36,492 bases of DNA, from assembly GCA_016871255.1 (NCBI GenBank), contig VFZH01000024.1, positions 1 through 36,492 on the forward strand. The letters are read 5' to 3'. This document shows, one piece after another, positions 2,875 through 19,931 of this stretch. The translations under genes were made by a program, and so were the position numbers. Source of the DNA: Acidimicrobiia bacterium. Its GTDB lineage: Bacteria; Acidobacteriota; Vicinamibacteria; Vicinamibacterales; UBA2999. Numbering within the stretch: the first letter of the stretch is position 1; every line of letters begins with the position of its first letter. A model generated the notes under the pieces. The model was given only the letters and a program-made list of their open reading frames with translations. It made no database searches and was not told where the DNA came from.

Positions 2875-3552
2875 GTGCCCCGCATCTTCGTCGTGGAAGA
2901 CGACCGCGACATCGCGGCCCTCGTCTCCCGCTACCTCACCAGGGCCGGCTGGCAGGTGGAACCGTTCGAGTCCGGCACGACGGCGCTCGCCGCCGCCAGG
3001 CAGGATCCACCGGACCTGATCGTCCTCGACCTGATGCTGCCGGGGCTGGACGGGCTGGCGGTCTGCCGAGCGCTCCGGGCGGACGGCTCGACCGCCGCCG
3101 TGCCGATCATCATGCTCACGGCGCGTGCCGAGGAGTCGGACCGGATCGTCGGCCTCGATCTCGGCGCCGACGACTACATCGCGAAACCGTTCAGCCCCAA
3201 CGAGCTCGTGGCGCGCGTCCGGGCGCTGCTGCGCCGGGTGGGGCGCGGCACCCCGCCCGACCAGCGGCTCCGCTACCGGTCGATCGCCGTCGATCTCACG
3301 CGCCACACGGTGTTGGACGACGGGCGCGACGTGAAGCTGACGGCCAAGGAATTCCTGCTGCTGCAGTACCTGCTGCAGCACCGCGGCCGCGTCCTGTCGC
3401 GCGACCTCCTGCTGAGCGACGTCTGGGGGTACCGCTACACCGGCGGCACGCGGACGGTGGACGTCCACGTGCGCCGGCTGCGGGAGAAGCTGCCGGCGCT
3501 CGTGGACGCGCTGGTCACGGTCAAGCAATTCGGCTACAAGCTGGAAGAGTGA
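2875..3552 (+). CDS. phoB: OmpR/PhoB-family response regulator
   Basis: 225 residues with an intact receiver domain: acidic pair D9/D10, phosphoacceptor D52, T82 and K104 in AKPFSP. A winged-helix DNA-binding domain follows (residues about 130-225, with [30 protein letters not shown] and the final GYKLEE). It overlaps the sensor kinase gene by 4 bases, so the two are translationally coupled. The kinase layout (two helices, PAS, HisKA) is that of PhoR. The nearby phosphate genes and 11-bp-phased operator repeats make a PhoB/PhoP role in the phosphate-starvation response the best reading. The symbol is therefore partly an inference from context; another OmpR-class regulator is possible. Confidence 0.85.
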
Positions 3553-4907
3553 CGTCACTCCGCACCAGGATCGCCGCCGGGGCCTTCGGGACGGCCATCG
3601 CGGCGCTCGCGGCCTTCTGGCTGCTCGACGACGTCTGGAATCCGGGGATCGCCGGCGTGCTGGCCATGGCCGTGGCCGCAGTCGTGGCGCTGCTGGGGGC
3701 GCGGCGGCTCGCGGCGCCGGTGTCGCGGCGGGTCCGGAACATCGAGGCCACGGCGCGACGCTACGCCACCGGCCGCCTCCTGCCGCCGGTCGGCGACTAC
3801 GGCGAAGACGAAGTCGGCGCCGTGGCACGCGCCTTCGACACGGCCGTCCAGGAGCTCGGCGTCCGTCTCGAGGGGCTGTCACGCGAGCGCGCGCGCATGG
3901 AAGCCATGCTGTCCGGCATGGTCGAAGGCGTCCTGGTGGTGGACGAACGGGGCCGCCTGCAGGTGGCGAACCGGGCCGCGCAGGCGATGCTGCGCGTGGA
4001 GGACGCGGCCATCGGCCGTCCGTACGTCGAGGCGATCCGCCACCCGGACATCACGGCGCTCCTCGGGTCGGCGCTGACGGGCGAGTTGCCGGAAGGCCGC
4101 GAGCTGTCGATGGTCCGCAACCCGGGCCGGCTCTTCGTCGCACGCGCGGCGCCGGTGGGGGTGGCCGGGGGCGGCGGGGCGGTGCTCGTCCTGCACGACA
4201 TCACCGACCTCAGGCGCGCGGACCAGATCCGCCGGGACTTCGTGGCGAACGTGTCGCACGAGCTGCGCACGCCGCTGACCGCGATTCGCGGCTACGTCGA
4301 AGCGCTGCTCGACGACGCGCCGGAGGGCAGCGAGGCGCGGCCGTTTCTGGAGATCATCCAGCGGCAGAGCGCCCGCATGGAGCGTCTGGTGTCCGACCTG
4401 CTCCGGCTCGCCCGGCTCGACGCCCGCCAGGAGACGCTGGACCTCTCGCGCTGCGACATCGACCAGCTCTTTGCCGGAGTGGTCGCCGACCTCGCGCCGT
4501 CGATCGACGCCAGGCGCCAGCGCGTCGCCGTACACGTCGACCCCGGGGCGGCCTCCATGGACGCCGACCCGGCCAAGCTGCACGACGTCGTCCGCAACCT
4601 CCTGGAGAACGCCGTCAACTACTCGCCGGACGACACGGACATCGCGCTCAGCGCGCAGCGCGGCGACGGCGTCGTTCGGCTGCAGGTGGCTGATTCGGGG
4701 CCCGGCATCCCCGCCGATGACCTCGGGCGCGTCTTCGAGCGCTTCTACCGGGTGGACAAGTCGCGCGCGCGCCCCGGGGGCACGGGGCTCGGCCTGGCGA
4801 TCGTCAAACACGTCGTCGAGCTGCACGGCGGATCGGTGCAGGCGGAGAACCGCCCTGAAGGCGGCGCCTGCTTCGTCGTCACGCTGCCAGCGCGACTGCA
4901 GCCATAG
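3549..4907 (+). CDS. phoR: PhoR-like sensor histidine kinase
   Basis: 452 residues from a GTG overlapping the regulator stop. Two hydrophobic helices (about 8-26 and 34-50) are joined by only about seven residues (DDVWNPG), so there is practically no extracytoplasmic sensor. A HAMP-like linker, a PAS domain (about 113-220, [16 protein letters not shown]), HisKA with phosphoacceptor H237 in [11 protein letters not shown], and a HATPase domain with [16 protein letters not shown] and [11 protein letters not shown] follow. This resembles E. coli PhoR, which reads phosphate through PstSCAB-PhoU at the membrane. The pst-phoU genes lie about 11 kb downstream. The ligand and the partnership with PhoU are inferences. 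Confidence 0.85.
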
Positions 4908-9836: not shown

Positions 9837-9851
9837 GACATGAAACACGGT

Positions 9852-9917
9852 TGTAACGCAGAAGAGACACAGCGTTAACGCATCGGTCACGATTCGGTAA
9901 CGCCGGAGTCGTACACA
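9852..9917 (+). promoter_or_regulatory. Pho-box-like 11-bp-phased repeat array and -10 of the porin gene
   Basis: Seven-base units TGTAACG (9852), GTTAACG (9874), GGTCACG (9885) and GGTAACG (9896) lie at exact multiples of 11 bp. The unit expected at 9863 is degenerate (AGAGACA). TNAC cores start at 9854, 9876, 9887 and 9898. A candidate -10, TACACA (9912-9917), starts 14 bp after the last core, and the ATG is 10 nt further. The 11-bp period is that of PhoB boxes (7+4) and of TTAACA-type PhoP boxes. The same geometry precedes pstS. Confidence 0.72.
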
Positions 9918-9927
9918 TCACAGGTGT

Positions 9928-11091
9928 ATGACCCGACTGGTACGGACGATCGCATCGATGCTGCTCCTGGCCGCGCCGGCGCAGGCACAGGACGGCGCCA
10001 CCGCCGCCCCTTCGGCAGCCCCAACCGGGACGGACGCCGGCGGGTCCGGCATCGCCTACGACCGGGTGTGGGAGCGGTTCACCCACTGGTACGCCAGCGA
10101 GACGAACCCGCTCGTCCGGGACGTCCGCTTCAGCGGGCGCTATCAGCTCGACTACGCCGTCCTCGACGCCAGCCAGGGCTCCCTGTGGCAGTGGAACGTG
10201 CGCCGGCTGCGGCTCGGGCCGAAGATCGCCCTGGCCCACGGCATCACCCTCCACGGCGAGATCGAACTGAACCCGCAGGAGGCCGACCCGCTGTACGTGC
10301 GCTTCACGGACCTCTACGTCCAGTGGAAGCAGGGCCCGCAGGTCACGCTGACCGTCGGCAAGCACGGCGTCCCGTTCACGGTGGACGGCTCGACGTCCTC
10401 CAAGGAGCTGCTGGCCATCGACCGGAGCAACCTCGCCAACAACCTCTGGTTCCCCCAGGAGTACATCCCCGGCGTCAGCCTGTCGGGCGCCAGGGACGGG
10501 TGGCAGTACTGGGCGGGGCTGTTCTCGTCCGGTGCGGGCACGCGCGAGTTCGGGCACTTCGACGGCGGCCGTTTCGCGATCGGCTCGCTCGGGTACGACG
10601 TCGCCGATCGCCTCGGGATCCGGGAAGCGCTCATCAGGGGCAGCTACGTGTACCAGCAGCCCGACATCGCGAACACCTTCACCCGGCAGCTCGAGCACGT
10701 CGCCTCGCTCAACGTCCTGCTCGAGGCCACGCGCTGGGGCGCCAGAGTGGACCTGTCCCGGGGCGCGGGCTACCTGGGACAGAGCGACGTGTGGGGCACA
10801 ATGCTGATGCCCTTCGTCAACGTCACCGCCCAGCTCCAGTTCGTCGGCCGGCACACGTTCCTGCGGAGCAGCGACGCGAACGGCGTGCGGCTGGCCACAT
10901 ACGAGAACGGCATTGTCGCCGGACTGGGCGACCGCTACCGCGAGTGGTACCTGGGCGCCAACTACTTCTTCTACGGGCACAAGCTGAAACTGCAGGCCGG
11001 CCTGCAGCACGCGGCCATGGACGACCGGGCGGACGACGGGGGGCAGTACGCCGGCACGTCGTTCGTGTCGGGGCTGCGCGTGAGCTGGTAG
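9928..11091 (+). CDS. Porin of the phosphate-selective O/P family
   Basis: 387 residues with a signal peptide (hydrophobic 5-16, cleavage near PAQAQ). The body alternates short amphipathic strands. Recognisable blocks are LWQWNVRRLRLGPK, LYVRFTDLYVQWK, LTVGKHGVPFT, WYLGANYFFYGHKLKLQAGLQHA and the final LRVSW. These fit the OprO/OprP family, trimeric outer-membrane channels for phosphate or polyphosphate. The C-terminal residue is Trp rather than Phe. Selectivity cannot be read from the barrel, but the PhoB-type repeat array directly upstream supports phosphate-regulated expression. The start is the first ATG after the promoter, with an expected leader of only a few bases. Confidence 0.85.
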   Translation: MTRLVRTIASMLLLAAPAQAQDGATAAPSAAPTGTDAGGSGIAYDRVWERFTHWYASETNPLVRDVRFSGRYQLDYAVLDASQGSLWQWNVRRLRLGPKIALAHGITLHGEIELNPQEADPLYVRFTDLYVQWKQGPQVTLTVGKHGVPFTVDGSTSSKELLAIDRSNLANNLWFPQEYIPGVSLSGARDGWQYWAGLFSSGAGTREFGHFDGGRFAIGSLGYDVADRLGIREALIRGSYVYQQPDIANTFTRQLEHVASLNVLLEATRWGARVDLSRGAGYLGQSDVWGTMLMPFVNVTAQLQFVGRHTFLRSSDANGVRLATYENGIVAGLGDRYREWYLGANYFFYGHKLKLQAGLQHAAMDDRADDGGQYAGTSFVSGLRVSW

Positions 11092-11116: not shown

Positions 11117-11462
11117 GCATGACGAGCGCTTTACCCACATTCAACGACGTCACCAGGCCCGTCAGCCTGCGCGAACTGGCCGCACGCGCCAGGGCTGCGC
11201 TGCGCCGGGGCGCCGCCCCCGCCGGGTGACCGGCCAGCCGGCACGCAGGTCTACAAGGGCAGGCAGCTGACGGCGGACTTCGACGCCGTGCCGGTCAGCG
11301 TGAACGGCGAAGCGGTTCGTCTCACGCGGCGCCAGTTCGAGCTGCTCCGCTACCTGCGTCCAGCACCGCAACCGCGTGATCTCCTGCGACCGGCTCCTCG
11401 AACACGTGCGGGGCTGCGACCGCGTGATCGAGACGGTGCAGCCGCACGTAGATTTCTCTTGA
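11117..11462 (+). pseudogene. Decayed OmpR-family response regulator
   Basis: Three frames together spell the second half of a response regulator. Frame one (from ATG 11117): NDVTRPVSLRELAARARAALRR, the end of a receiver (compare YITKPFSLRELxARVRA), then a stop at about 11227. Frame two: YKGRQLTADFDAVPVSVNGEAVRL and TRRQFELLRYL, the winged-helix start. After an extra base near 11356, frame three: VQHRNRVISCDRLLEHVRG, CDRVIETVQPHVDF, then TGA at 11460. Most of the receiver, the catalytic Asp and the C-terminal recognition wing are missing. At least two frameshifts make it non-functional. The 449-base gap it occupies holds no other gene. Confidence 0.82.
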
Positions 11463-13938: not shown

Positions 13939-15522
13939 ATGCGTCTCGCAGCCATCGACATCGGCACCAACTCCGTACACATGCTGATCGTGCGGGTGCG
14001 CGCCGATCTCTCGTTCGAGGTCGTGGACCGCGAGAAGGCCATGGTCCGGCTGGGTGCCGGCGGTCTCGGAGGGCGCAAGCTCTCTGCCGACGCGATGCAC
14101 GCGGGGCTGGAGGCGCTCTCGCGCTTCACGCGCCTGGCCGAGGCGCACCGGGTCGATCAGATCCTGGCCGCCGCCACGAGTGCCGCACGCGAGGCGGAGA
14201 ACGGCGGCGAGTTCCTCTCGCGCATCCGCCACGCCACCGGCATCCGGCCGCGCGTCATCTCCGGCGCCGAAGAAGCCCGGCTGATCCACCTCGCCGCCGT
14301 GTACGGCGTGGACGTGGGCGGGGGGCGCGCCGTGGTGCTCGATGTCGGGGGCGGCAGCGTGGAGATCACGCTGGGGACCGCTACGTCGATCCAGCTCGCC
14401 CGCAGCTTCAAGATCGGCGTGATCCGGCTCACCGAGCGGTTCGTGCACAGCGACCCGGTCACGCGTGGCGACGAACGGCGCATCGAGCAGCAGGTCGTGC
14501 AGGAGGTGGGCCGTCACGTCGAGCAGGTCGTGGCGGCCGGCTTCGACCGCGTCATCGGAACCTCGGGCACGATTCTCGGTCTCGGGGCGGTCGCCTCCGC
14601 GGCCGCGACCGGTACCCCGCCCGACGAGCTGCGCAACCGGCGGATCCCGGCCCGCCAGATCCGGCGGCTCCGGAGGGACGTGGCCACCCGCAACCTCGAG
14701 CAGCGGCTGGCCATGCCGGGCATGGATCCCAAGCGGGCCGATCTGATCGTCACCGGCGCGATCGTCCTCGACACGCTGCTGCGCCTCCTGGGCGCCGAGG
14801 AACTCACGCTCTGCGATCTGGCCCTGCGCGAAGGCCTCGTGCTCGACTACATCGGACGCCACCGCCGGCAGATCGCCCACGCGGACCGGATCCCGGACGT
14901 CCGGCGCCGCAGCACCATCGAGCTGGCGGAACGGTGCAATTACCACGTCGATCACGCCCACCAGGTCGCCCGTCTGGCGCTCGCCCTGTTCGACCAGACC
15001 CGCGCGGTGCACGGGCTGGGTGAGCGCGAGCGCGAGTGGCTCGAATACGCCTCGCTCATGCACGACATCGGCGTGCACATCAGCTACGCGCGCCACCACA
15101 AGCACTCGCAGTACCTCATCAAGAACGGCGATCTCCGCGGCTTCCATCCCGATGAGATCGACGTCATGGCCCTGGTCGCGCGGTACCATCGGCGGGCCGA
15201 ACCCAGCCGCGACCACCCCGAGTACGGGCGCCTTTCCCCGCCGCTGCGCCGGACCGTGCGGACGCTCGCGGCCATCGTGAGGCTGGCCGAGGGCCTGGAC
15301 CGGTCGCACAGCCAGGTCGTGTCCGGCGTCGAGGTGGTGGAGCGGAACGCGGCGCTGGAGCTGCGGCTCACGACCACGAGCGATGCCGAGCTGGAGATCT
15401 GGGCGGCGCACCGCCAGGCCGGACCGTTCGAGGCGGCCATCGGCCGGGCGGTCCGCTGCGAAGCCCACCCCGACCAGACGGGCGTGCGTAACGCGGATTT
15501 AACACCTCAGAAACGGCGGTGA
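13939..15522 (+). CDS. ppx: Exopolyphosphatase / GppA-family phosphatase with HD domain
   Basis: 527 residues. The N-terminal ASKHA ATPase-like fold shows AAIDIGTNSVHMLIV (3-17), ISGAEEARLIHL with the catalytic Glu, and LDVGGGSVEITLG. A C-terminal HD module follows (from about 310): HVDHAHQVARLAL, LMHDIGVHISYARHHKHS and VARYHRR. This is the layout of Ppx/GppA, which shorten polyphosphate to phosphate or hydrolyse pppGpp to ppGpp. The neighbours (CHAD, Pst) favour polyphosphate. Sequence alone does not separate the two activities, so the symbol is provisional. Its last codons overlap the Pho-box array of pstS. Confidence 0.88.
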   Translation: MRLAAIDIGTNSVHMLIVRVRADLSFEVVDREKAMVRLGAGGLGGRKLSADAMHAGLEALSRFTRLAEAHRVDQILAAATSAAREAENGGEFLSRIRHATGIRPRVISGAEEARLIHLAAVYGVDVGGGRAVVLDVGGGSVEITLGTATSIQLARSFKIGVIRLTERFVHSDPVTRGDERRIEQQVVQEVGRHVEQVVAAGFDRVIGTSGTILGLGAVASAAATGTPPDELRNRRIPARQIRRLRRDVATRNLEQRLAMPGMDPKRADLIVTGAIVLDTLLRLLGAEELTLCDLALREGLVLDYIGRHRRQIAHADRIPDVRRRSTIELAERCNYHVDHAHQVARLALALFDQTRAVHGLGEREREWLEYASLMHDIGVHISYARHHKHSQYLIKNGDLRGFHPDEIDVMALVARYHRRAEPSRDHPEYGRLSPPLRRTVRTLAAIVRLAEGLDRSHSQVVSGVEVVERNAALELRLTTTSDAELEIWAAHRQAGPFEAAIGRAVRCEAHPDQTGVRNADLTPQKRR

Positions 15523-15541
15523 AACCACTGTCCGGTACCGT
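15488..15541 (+). promoter_or_regulatory. Pho-box-like 11-bp-phased repeat array and -10 of pstS
   Basis: GTAACGC (15488), TTAACAC (15499), GAAACGG (15510) and GAAACCA (15521) are spaced exactly 11 bp. TAAC/AAAC cores start at 15489, 15500, 15511 and 15522. A candidate -10, TACCGT (15536-15541), starts 14 bp after the last core, the same distance as at the porin promoter, and the pstS ATG is 7 nt further. The array spans the ppx stop codon, so pstS-phoU can be induced separately from ppx. Confidence 0.75.
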
Positions 15542-15548
15542 GGCCTCC

Positions 15549-16595
15549 ATGCGTCTGCCCGGTCTCGTTCTGCCTGTTCTGCTCGTGTCGGCCGTGGCCT
15601 GCGGCGGCGGCGCCCCGTCGGGATCCGAAGACGGCGGCGCCATCGACATCAACGGGGCGGGCGCCACCTTCCCGTATCCCATCTACTCGAAGTGGTTCTT
15701 CGAGTACCACGCGCTCCGGCCGGACGTCCGGATCAACTACCAGTCAATCGGCTCGGGTGGCGGCATCCGGCAGCTCACCAACCGGACGGTGTTCTTCGGC
15801 GCATCCGACGGCCCGATGACCGAGGACCAGATCGCCGCGGCGCCCGGCGCCATCCTGCACCTGCCGACCGTCCTGGGCGCGGTCGTGCCGATCTACAACG
15901 TGCCGGGCCTGGCAGCCGATCTGCGGTTCGACGGCACGCTGCTCGCGGACATCTACCTGGGCACGGTCACGAAGTGGAACGACCCGGCCATTGCGCGTCT
16001 GAACCCGGGCGTGGCCCTGCCGGCTGACGACATCGTGGTCGTGCACCGATCCGACGGGTCCGGCACGACGTTCGTCTTCGTCGACTTCCTCTCCAAGGTG
16101 TCGCCGGCCTTCCGGGAGCGCGTCGGCGTGGCAACCGCCGTCAGCTGGCCCACGGGCGTGGGCGGCAAGGGCAACGAAGGTGTCGCCGGTCTGGTGTCCC
16201 AGACGCCGGGCTCGATCGGCTACGTCGAGCTCGTCTACGCCGAGCAGAACCGGATCGCGCACGGCGCCGTGCGGAACGCGGCGGGCGCGTTCATCCGGGC
16301 GTCGCCGGCGGCGGTCACGGCCGCCGCGGCGGAGGCCGCCGCCAACATGCCGGCGGACTTCCGCGTGTCGATCACGAACGCGCCAGGCGAGGCCGCCTAC
16401 CCGATCGCCTCGTTCACCTGGCTGCTCCTGTACGAACAGCCCGAGGACAAGGCCCGCAGCCGCGCCATGGTGGAGTTCATGAGGTGGGCGCTGACCGACG
16501 GCCAGCAGCACTGCGAAGCCCTGGGCTACGCGCCGCTGCCGCCCGAGGTCGTGTCGCTCGAACTGGCCGCCCTCGAGCGCGTCGCGGTGTCCTGA
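15549..16595 (+). CDS. pstS: Phosphate-binding lipoprotein PstS
   Basis: 348 residues from the ATG at 15549. An in-frame GTG at 15519 is rejected because it lies inside the Pho-box array. The signal peptide ends in SAVAC with lipobox Cys 18, so it is probably a lipid-anchored periplasmic protein. PstS signatures: INGAGATFPYPIYSKWF, SIGSGGGIRQL, FGASDGPM, VPIYNVPGL, VVHRSDGSGTTFVFVDFLS, and GNEGVAGLVSQTPGSIGYVEL. It delivers phosphate to PstCAB. First gene of pstSCAB-phoU, 12 bases before pstC. Confidence 0.95.
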   Translation: MRLPGLVLPVLLVSAVACGGGAPSGSEDGGAIDINGAGATFPYPIYSKWFFEYHALRPDVRINYQSIGSGGGIRQLTNRTVFFGASDGPMTEDQIAAAPGAILHLPTVLGAVVPIYNVPGLAADLRFDGTLLADIYLGTVTKWNDPAIARLNPGVALPADDIVVVHRSDGSGTTFVFVDFLSKVSPAFRERVGVATAVSWPTGVGGKGNEGVAGLVSQTPGSIGYVELVYAEQNRIAHGAVRNAAGAFIRASPAAVTAAAAEAAANMPADFRVSITNAPGEAAYPIASFTWLLLYEQPEDKARSRAMVEFMRWALTDGQQHCEALGYAPLPPEVVSLELAALERVAVS

Positions 16596-16607: not shown

Positions 16608-17534
16608 ATGAACCTTCGATCGCCGGATCTGGGTTTCCGCCTGTCGGCGGGCGCCTTCGCCCTCGCCCTGGCGGCCATCGTCGTCGCGATCGGGGTCGAG
16701 CTGACGCGCCAGTCCTGGCTGTCGATCACCGAGTTCGGGTTCGATTTCTGGCGCTCGTCGGAGTGGGATCCCGTATCGGGAGAGTTCGGCGCGCTGCCCT
16801 TCATCTGGGGCACCCTCTACTCCTCGTTCGCGGCGCTGCTGATCGCCACTCCGGTCGCGCTGGGCATCGCCATCTTCATCTCCGAGCTGTCGCCGTCGTG
16901 GCTGCGCACGCCGCTGGTCTTCCTGACGGAGCTGCTGGCCGCGATCCCCTCGATCGTCTACGGGCTGTGGGGCATCTTCGTCCTCGTCCCTGCCGTGCGC
17001 TCGCTGCAGATGGTCACGCCGGAGTTCCTGCGCCAGCTCCCGCTGTTCTCGGGGCCGCCGCTCGGGATCGGCATGCTCTCGGCGGCGCTGATCCTCGCGA
17101 TCATGGTCGTGCCGTTCACCTCGGCCGTGGCGCGCGAGGTGCTGCGGACCGTGCCGAACACCCAGCGAGAGGGTGCGTACGCGCTGGGCGCCACGCGGTT
17201 CGAGGCGATCCGCGCCGTGATGTTCTACGCGCGCACGGGCATCGTGGGCGCGATCATGCTGGGCTTCGGCCGGGCGCTGGGTGAGACGATGGCGGTGACG
17301 ATGGTGATCGGGAACAACCCGCAGGTCTCCGCCTCGCTCTTCTCGCCGCAGCACACCATGGCCGCGGTGATCGCGAACGAGTTCACGGAAGCGGCCGACG
17401 ACCTGTACCTGCACGCGCTCATCGAGATCGGCCTCGTGCTGTTCGTGATCACCCTCGTCGTCAACGCGCTCTCGCGGCTGCTGATCTGGACCATGGCCGG
17501 GGGCGGCGGCACCGCCGCACGGGCAAAGGCATGA
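16608..17534 (+). CDS. pstC: Phosphate ABC transporter permease PstC
   Basis: 308 residues with six expected transmembrane helices, the first at about 12-32. ALPFIWGTLYSSFAALLIATPVAL and the permease loop EGAYALGATRFEAIRAVMFY (the EAA motif contacting PstB) are visible, as is GRALGETMAVTMVIGNNPQ. It forms the inner-membrane channel with PstA. Its stop overlaps the pstA start by 4 bases (ATGA), indicating translational coupling and 1:1 synthesis. Confidence 0.95.
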   Translation: MNLRSPDLGFRLSAGAFALALAAIVVAIGVELTRQSWLSITEFGFDFWRSSEWDPVSGEFGALPFIWGTLYSSFAALLIATPVALGIAIFISELSPSWLRTPLVFLTELLAAIPSIVYGLWGIFVLVPAVRSLQMVTPEFLRQLPLFSGPPLGIGMLSAALILAIMVVPFTSAVAREVLRTVPNTQREGAYALGATRFEAIRAVMFYARTGIVGAIMLGFGRALGETMAVTMVIGNNPQVSASLFSPQHTMAAVIANEFTEAADDLYLHALIEIGLVLFVITLVVNALSRLLIWTMAGGGGTAARAKA

Positions 17535-18376
17535 ACGGCACGCTGCGCCGAAAGGTCATCTCGGCTCTGTTCGTCGGCGCCTGCGCGCTGGCTGTGGTCG
17601 CCGCGCTCGTCCCGCTGGCCTTCATCCTGTTCTTCGTCGCCAGCCAGGGCCTCCAGGCGATCAGCCTCGAGTTCTTCACCGGCACGCCGAAGCCGGTCGG
17701 CGAGCCCGGCGGCGGCATGGCGAACGCGATCGTGGGCACGCTGATGCTCGTCGGCCTGGCGGCGCTGTTCGCGCTCCCGATCGGGATCATGACCGGCATC
17801 TACCTGTCGGAGTACTCCGGCGGCCGGTTCTCGTCGGCGGTCCGGTTCGCGACCGACACGCTGAACGGGGTCCCCTCCATCGTCATCGGCGTGTTCGCGT
17901 ACGGCGTCGCGGTGCTGCCGTTCCGGCAATTCAGCGCGCTGGCGGGCGGCATGGCGCTCGGCATCATGATGATCCCGATCATCGCCCGGACCACCGAGGA
18001 GCTCCTGCTGCTGGTGCCCGGCGCCATGCGCGAGGGAGCCCTGGCGCTCGGCGCGAGCCGCGCACGGGCGGTCTTCACCGTGATCGTCCCGGCCGCCCTG
18101 CCCGGCATCGTCACCGGCGTCGTGCTGGCTCTCGCCCGCGTCGCCGGAGAGACGGCGCCGCTCCTCTTCACCTCGTTCAACAACCGATTCTTCTCCACCA
18201 GCCTCACCGAGCCGGTCTCGTCGATCACGGTGCAGGTGTTCACCTACGCGATCTCGCCGTACGAAGACTGGCATCGGCAGGCCTGGGCCGGCGCCCTCGT
18301 CCTGGTGACGATCGTGTTCGTCTGCTCGCTGCTGGCCCGGCTGGCCACGGCACGTGTCGCCCGGATCCGGGACTGA
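17531..18376 (+). CDS. pstA: Phosphate ABC transporter permease PstA
   Basis: 281 residues; first helix at about 10-38. Characteristic blocks are PVGEPGGGMANAIVGTL, LPIGIMTGIYLSEYSGG, TLNGVPSIVIGVFAY, and the EAA-type loop EGALALGASRARAVFTVIVPAALPGIVTG followed by ARVAGETAPLLFTSFNN. Second half of the phosphate channel. It starts inside pstC and ends 9 bases before pstB. Confidence 0.95.
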   Translation: MNGTLRRKVISALFVGACALAVVAALVPLAFILFFVASQGLQAISLEFFTGTPKPVGEPGGGMANAIVGTLMLVGLAALFALPIGIMTGIYLSEYSGGRFSSAVRFATDTLNGVPSIVIGVFAYGVAVLPFRQFSALAGGMALGIMMIPIIARTTEELLLLVPGAMREGALALGASRARAVFTVIVPAALPGIVTGVVLALARVAGETAPLLFTSFNNRFFSTSLTEPVSSITVQVFTYAISPYEDWHRQAWAGALVLVTIVFVCSLLARLATARVARIRD

Positions 18377-18385
18377 GCCGCCACC

Positions 18386-19234
<849 letters not shown>

Positions 19235-19247
19235 AGGAGACACGCGC

Positions 19248-19931
19248 GTGGACCAGCGGGCCCTGCCGCACTTTCAGGAAGAGCTGCAGACACTGCAGCA
19301 GCGCCTGCTCCAGATGGGTGGGCTGGCGGAAGAGCGCGTCCGCGCGGCGATCGCGTGTCTCGTGTCGGGCGACGTGGACGGGCTGGACGCGATCGCATCG
19401 GGCGACGAGCCGGTCAACGAGCTGCACATCGAGGTCGATCGGCGCTGCTTCCAGCTCCTGGCGCTGTACCAGCCGATGGCGGTCGATCTGCGCGCGATCG
19501 TCGCCGCGGTCAAGATCAACACCGACCTGGAACGCGTCGGCGACCTGGCCGTGAGCATCGCGGAAGCGGCACGGCGCTACATGCTCCACCCCCCGGTCAA
19601 GCAGCTGATCGACATTCCCCGCATGGGCGACATCGCGCAGAGCATGCTGCGCGATGCCCTCGACGCGTTCGTCCGCCGCGACACCAGCATGGCGCAGCGA
19701 GTCCTGGACGAGGACGACACCCTGGATGCGCTGAAGAGCCAGATCTTCCGCGAGCTGCTGACCTACATGCTGAAGGACGCCGTCGCGGTCGAACCGGCCA
19801 TCGACCTGATCCTGATCTCGCGGCACCTCGAGCGCATCGGCGATCACGCCACGAACATCGCCGAAGACGTGATCTTCATGGTGTCGGCCCGGGACGTCCG
19901 CCACCAGGCCAGCCCGCTGCCCGATCGCTGA
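19248..19931 (+). CDS. phoU: Phosphate signalling protein PhoU
   Basis: 227 residues from a GTG preceded by AGAGGAGA (Shine-Dalgarno), 13 bases after pstB. The fold is two repeated three-helix bundles with metal-binding acidic motifs: RAIVAAVKINTDLERVGDLAVSIAE in the first half and LILISRHLERIGDHATNIAEDVIF in the second. PhoU represses PhoR when phosphate is plentiful and limits Pst uptake. Its place at the end of pstSCAB is canonical. The sensor kinase with almost no periplasmic loop at 3549-4907 is a plausible partner. Confidence 0.95.
   Translation: MDQRALPHFQEELQTLQQRLLQMGGLAEERVRAAIACLVSGDVDGLDAIASGDEPVNELHIEVDRRCFQLLALYQPMAVDLRAIVAAVKINTDLERVGDLAVSIAEAARRYMLHPPVKQLIDIPRMGDIAQSMLRDALDAFVRRDTSMAQRVLDEDDTLDALKSQIFRELLTYMLKDAVAVEPAIDLILISRHLERIGDHATNIAEDVIFMVSARDVRHQASPLPDR

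Follow-up and report, generated by a model that had tools for sequence, protein, structure and literature searches.

Pho boxes are direct repeats of 11 nt whose letters vary between species (PMC4415409). The box of E. coli, with two 11-nt units of the CTGTCAT type, lies before pstS and just upstream of a TANNNT hexamer (PMC4415409), whereas the cyanobacterial SphR/PhoB box, CTTAACCT (8 bp plus a 3-bp linker; PMC1906773, PMC11126600), consists of at least three tandem TTAA(C) units with a period of 11 bp, likewise before pst genes. Upstream of the pst genes of Desulfovibrio vulgaris, the PhoB orthologue (DVU1083) binds a direct repeat with the core (c/t)GT(n)AC, composed of 6-bp repeats and a 4-bp spacer, as established by DAP-chip and gel shift (PMC3333781). 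A box of very similar appearance is read by a regulator of another kind, the Streptomyces coelicolor GlnR, and has been given as gTnAc-n6-GaAAc-n6-GtnAC-n6-GAAAc (PMC10704036).

Here, we analyse a stretch of 36,492 nucleotides from a genome of the phylum Acidobacteriota (contig VFZH01000024.1; the whole stretch is hereafter called the window), in which an array of four 11-bp direct repeats precedes pstS. We propose, at a probability of about 0.86, that this array is the Pho box of the Acidobacteriota order concerned, i.e. a PhoB-type operator situated in the −35 region of a predicted leaderless promoter. The open-access literature that we searched held no description of a Pho box for Acidobacteria, the two terms occurring together only via a reference list, and the array has apparently not been described before for Acidobacteriota.

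The arrays ahead of pstS and of a porin gene

The four units of the pstS array, which in order and in full are GTAACGCGGAT-TTAACACCTCA-GAAACGGCGGT-GAAACCACTGT, begin with GTAAC (15488), TTAAC (15499), GAAAC (15510), and GAAAC (15521) in exact 11-bp spacing and have the consensus [GT][TA]AAC-n6 (for the coordinates of all features, see Table 1). An earlier, sequence-only reading of the window had placed TAAC cores at 15489 and 15500 and AAAC cores at 15511 and 15522, separated by three intervals of exactly 11 bp, and had described the array as straddling the ppx stop. We confirmed each of these statements: the array covers the last ppx codons together with the TGA (15520–15522), the 3′ end of ppx overlapping units 1–3 and reaching just into unit 4. 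A Pho box is recognizable by at least two direct repeats with an 11-nt period, and four are present here.

Table 1. Features of the window that bear on the proposed Pho box
Feature	Position	Strand	Basis or remark
PhoB-type response regulator, candidate reader	2875..3552	+	TIGR02154 PhoB best profile, below equivalog cut-off
PhoR/PnpS-type histidine kinase, partner of the regulator	3549..4907	+	NF046044 and TIGR02966 among best, below cut-offs
Second array, six units, exact 11-bp phase	9842..9907	+	Unit scan
Possible −10 TACACA	9912..9917	+	15 bp past unit 6 start; weaker than TANNNT
Phosphate-selective porin O/P-like (Porin_O_P) gene	9928..11091	+	PF07396, E=1.3e-15
Degenerate remnant of the paralogue's own box	11130..11157	+	TTTACCCACAT-TCAACGAC-GTCACC
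Decayed remnant of second phoB paralogue (residues 111–212, three frames)	11149..11450	+	tblastn, G005 orthologue as query
ppx/gppA exopolyphosphatase	13939..15522	+	Pfam PF02541, PF21447
Four-unit 11-bp direct-repeat array (putative Pho box)	15488..15531	+	Sequence, chance test, conservation
Predicted −10 hexamer TACCGT	15536..15541	+	15 bp past unit 4 start
pstS, predicted leaderless start ATG 15549	15549..16595	+	TIGR00975, 389 bits
pstC, pstA, pstB, phoU, remainder of operon	16608..19931	+	NCBIfam matches above cut-off

Scored with unit weights that had been trained on other species only, the window's own site being left out, the pstS array reaches 36.2, compared with a maximum of 15.8 in 200 shuffled 36-kb windows. 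The same unit-weight scan found nothing comparable to it at periods of 9, 10, 12, or 13. In the genome of 3.9 Mb, moreover, the array is the sole match to a degenerate four-unit pattern with up to three mismatches allowed.

The predicted −10 hexamer of pstS and the six-unit array ahead of the porin gene are both absent from the sequence-only reading. As is typical of Pho boxes, the promoter-proximal unit stands at a fixed short distance from a TANNNT hexamer, which here ends 7 nt ahead of the pstS ATG. A spacing of 15 bp between the start of unit 4 and a TANNNT hexamer holds in 43/43 tabulated sites of the family, a regularity that is partly built in because the hexamer columns belonged to the search model; the start codon, whose position lay outside that model, follows the hexamer at a distance of 6–7 nt in 36 of the same 43 sites. 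Only two of them have Shine-Dalgarno-like 4-mers, and TANNNT about 10 bp ahead of the start codon is a published mark of leaderless genes, those of Acidobacteria included (PMC3160421). The pst mRNA is thus predicted to be leaderless. The activator, in turn, would substitute for the −35 contact, given that the last repeat occupies the −35 place and is fixed at 15 bp from the −10. The longest pstS reading frame opens at GTG 15519; the likely start is nevertheless ATG 15549, which fits both the promoter geometry and the lipoprotein signal (MRLPGLVLPVLLVSAVACGG) beginning there.

The second array comprises the units GAAAC (9842), GTAAC (9853), GAGAC (9864), TTAAC (9875), GTCAC (9886), and GTAAC (9897) and, with six units, is longer than the pstS array with its four. 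Its possible −10 sits 10 nt before the porin ATG (9928). The model that we used to search for the array from sequence alone (R1) found only the pst site in the window's own genome; the porin array, being composed of differing units, escaped it, and a looser, unit-based scan was therefore employed. When four units with at most one mismatch were sought genome-wide, the matches consisted of the pst array, the porin array in four overlapping registers, and a single unrelated place, whereas a reversed-pattern control gave no match in the same genome. Since the only clear arrays of the genome precede the pst operon and the porin gene, both appear to serve phosphate uptake. A weak third match (G000:C94:4347–4384, equivalent to L254 1501–1538) lies before an FAD-oxidoreductase-like gene; it adjoins an ordinary −35/−10-like pair, and we discounted it as a chance match or the site of another regulator. 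We likewise rejected an RNA element, the window having no Rfam match and the array lying upstream of the predicted transcription start.

According to the mechanism that we propose, scarcity of phosphate would lead a phosphorylated PhoB-type regulator to bind the four repeats head-to-tail, along a single face of the DNA. The bound activator would then stand in for the −35 contact and recruit sigma-70 RNA polymerase, and transcription would start at or beside the pstS ATG to yield a leaderless pstSCAB-phoU mRNA. Via the six-unit array, the porin gene would come under the activating control of this regulator as well.

Recurrence of the array in relatives

In eight species, including that of the window, the array upstream of orthologous pstS genes gives a gap-free alignment that extends from unit 1 to TANNNT. 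R1 matches 40/43 genomes of the family and 89/162 genomes of the order, counts that refer to genomes rather than to independent events and in a group in which the public records nearest to the window genome are mostly metagenome-assembled genomes. The array precedes two non-orthologous PstS families (TIGR00975 and TIGR02136) and, within the order, also pstB, porin genes, and a second phoB paralogue; such repeated placement before phosphate genes is a further property of Pho boxes. Some weak matches to R1 at the level of the order (e.g. L236, L245, and L247) have downstream genes of unclear nature. The suggestion made in the sequence-only reading, that the cores may be the Pho box of a lineage for which none had been defined, is supported by this recurrence before phosphate genes, and it has withstood the check proposed along with it, namely whether the phased cores are conserved upstream of pstS orthologues in relatives.

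Outside the family, we looked for units learned within it in the regions ahead of pst genes, or of the heads of their operons, in other lineages. At a period of 11, 35 of 122 pst-linked regions were significant, whereas at each of the periods 8–10 and 12–15 between zero and four of the same regions were. Phased TTAAC/GTAAC arrays were also observed before pst genes in records bearing the names Desulfosporosinus (L083 4753), Chitinophagaceae (L089 3523), and Opitutaceae (L067 4814), in each case followed at 15 bp, or nearly so, by a hexamer resembling a −10, which suggests that the geometry of the array is common far beyond Acidobacteriota.

Candidate readers and rival explanations

Two types of PhoB-like regulator, both scoring below the PhoB equivalog cut-off, come into question as readers of the array in the family. 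The regulator encoded at 2875–3552 keeps the receiver motif LDLMLP, and the best structural matches to its DNA-binding domain, which we take to be GlnR proteins, have a recognition helix identical to its own. Regulators of this type reach the threshold in 37/43 family genomes, often have their gene immediately downstream of one for a PHO4 phosphate transporter in relatives, and have orthologues in nearly all array-bearing genomes (the ones without a detected orthologue being G029, G014, G023, and G008). Many phoB genes are autoregulated, unlike those of the 2875 type, of which 0/29 examined have the array in their own promoter. An imperfect short tandem repeat (CAATCNNCAATCC-like, ~9–10 nt) occupies positions 2745–2860, directly upstream of the 2875 gene.

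The second type, represented by the P0001-type paralogue with the recognition helix RSVDVHVGRLR, has the same array in the same geometry in 20/20 promoters measured, a count made without loci L180 and L190–L192. This paralogue reaches the threshold in 23/43 family genomes, is missing from roughly half of those that bear the array, and lies near ppx-pstS in several relatives. In the window, some 110 N-terminal codons are gone and the remainder contains two frame changes, in a slot that holds an intact, box-bearing gene in relatives; the degenerate remnant of its own box may be compared with GTAACCCACAT-TTAACGGCCGC-GTCACGG in L172. Directly before the second phoB of G005 lies the gene of a 965-aa protein (L148 8781–11678) that combines a glycosyltransferase, a histidine kinase, and a receiver domain. 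The paralogue is probably a target of the 2875-type regulator and may act as an amplifier.

In our assessment, the array is probably read by the PhoB-type regulator at 2875–3552 together with the kinase at 3549–4907, the 2875 type being the likely primary reader because the paralogue is found in only 23/43 genomes and as a fragment in the window. This regulator is a good candidate rather than a proven reader, as the only regulator gene that bears the box in relatives is the paralogue, a pseudogene here. Should the autoregulated paralogue be the reader instead, the array of the window would be a relic or would be read by cross-talk. Such a scenario would account for the array in every measured promoter of the paralogue and in none of the 2875 type, as well as for the location of the paralogue near ppx-pstS in several relatives; we consider it unlikely, since the array extends to 40/43 genomes, well beyond the paralogue, and is undecayed in the window despite the loss of the latter. 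The recognition helices point in the same direction: that of the 2875 type is shared with regulators presumed to be GlnR, readers of GTnAC/GAAAC, whereas the paralogue has a different one.

That shared helix also raises the question of whether the array might be the operator of a GlnR-like nitrogen regulator, a view to which the presumed GlnR identity of the best matches to the window regulator's DNA-binding domain lends itself but which we hold to be very improbable. Indeed, the S. coelicolor GlnR box matches the array in its letters and its 11-bp period (PMC10704036), yet clear arrays are found in the genome only ahead of the pst operon and the phosphate porin, with none at a nitrogen gene, while those of relatives precede pstS, pstB, phoB, and porin genes. 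The window regulator, furthermore, has LDLMLP and an adjoining PhoR-type kinase, whereas GlnR is reported to be an atypical regulator (PMC3087709). Next to no weight attaches to the reading that the phased cores arose as a side effect of coding constraint on the 3′ end of ppx or simply by chance, even though units 1–3 overlap the last ppx codons in the window. The ppx stop of L005 and L008 lies 28 bp upstream, leaving the array intergenic, and the frame of L002, L004, and L007 terminates at differing points of the array; it is thus the DNA and not the codons that is conserved, which refutes the coding-constraint reading. Coding constraint and chance alike are opposed by the arrays that precede pstS, phoB, pstB, and porin genes elsewhere, in different surroundings, and by the enrichment of period 11 alone.

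Returning to a Pho box read by PhoB-type regulators, we tentatively envisage a circuit of two layers, in which PhoB/PhoR would read GlnR-like GTAAC/GAAAC arrays and thereby activate uptake genes and a second, self-boosting PhoB paralogue. The second layer would have been lost repeatedly, also in the window genome, with the operators remaining intact.

Comparison with known operators

Acidobacteriota are among the most abundant bacteria of soil, where phosphate often limits growth. The array and its rigid spacing can serve directly as a model with which to search genomes without genetics for phosphate-responsive genes, and they predict an exact and easily tested transcription start.

Judged by their letters, the units are closer to the GlnR and Desulfovibrio PhoB boxes than to the CTGTCAT of E. 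coli. The sequence GTAAC-n6-TTAAC-n6-GAAAC-n6-GAAAC fits the actinobacterial GlnR box nearly throughout, the 11-bp period is the same, and the candidate regulator shares the recognition helix; GlnR, however, controls nitrogen genes, whereas all clear targets here are phosphate genes. The sequence-only reading had likened the array to the TTAACA of Bacillus rather than to the proteobacterial CTGTCAT. This holds insofar as the consensus differs from CTGTCAT, but the GlnR and D. vulgaris boxes are at least as close to the array as TTAACA is. The PhoP box of Bacillus is of the TTAACA type, with an 11-bp period; unit 2 of the array fits it, unit 1 does so partly, and units 3 and 4 have GAAAC instead.

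With the E. coli box, the array has in common its 11-nt repeats before pstS and its place just upstream of TANNNT, and it differs in its letters, its four or six units, the predicted leaderless transcript, and a distance to the −10 that is shorter by ~2–3 bp according to our own reckoning. Tandem TTAA(C) units, at least three in number, with a period of 11 bp and before pst genes link it to the cyanobacterial box, although its core is a mixture of GTAAC, TTAAC, and GAAAC in a GC-rich genome of another phylum. The box of D. vulgaris, bound by a PhoB orthologue, shares the direct-repeat core upstream of pst genes; in place of 6-bp repeats with a 4-bp spacer, the array has five defined bases followed by six others, four to six such units, and a fixed, predicted leaderless promoter. 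The array is set apart from known Pho boxes by its letters, by how many units it has, and by its rigid promoter, predicted to be leaderless, and it would offer a natural case of PhoB-family regulators changing the letters of their DNA sites while keeping the 11-bp geometry.
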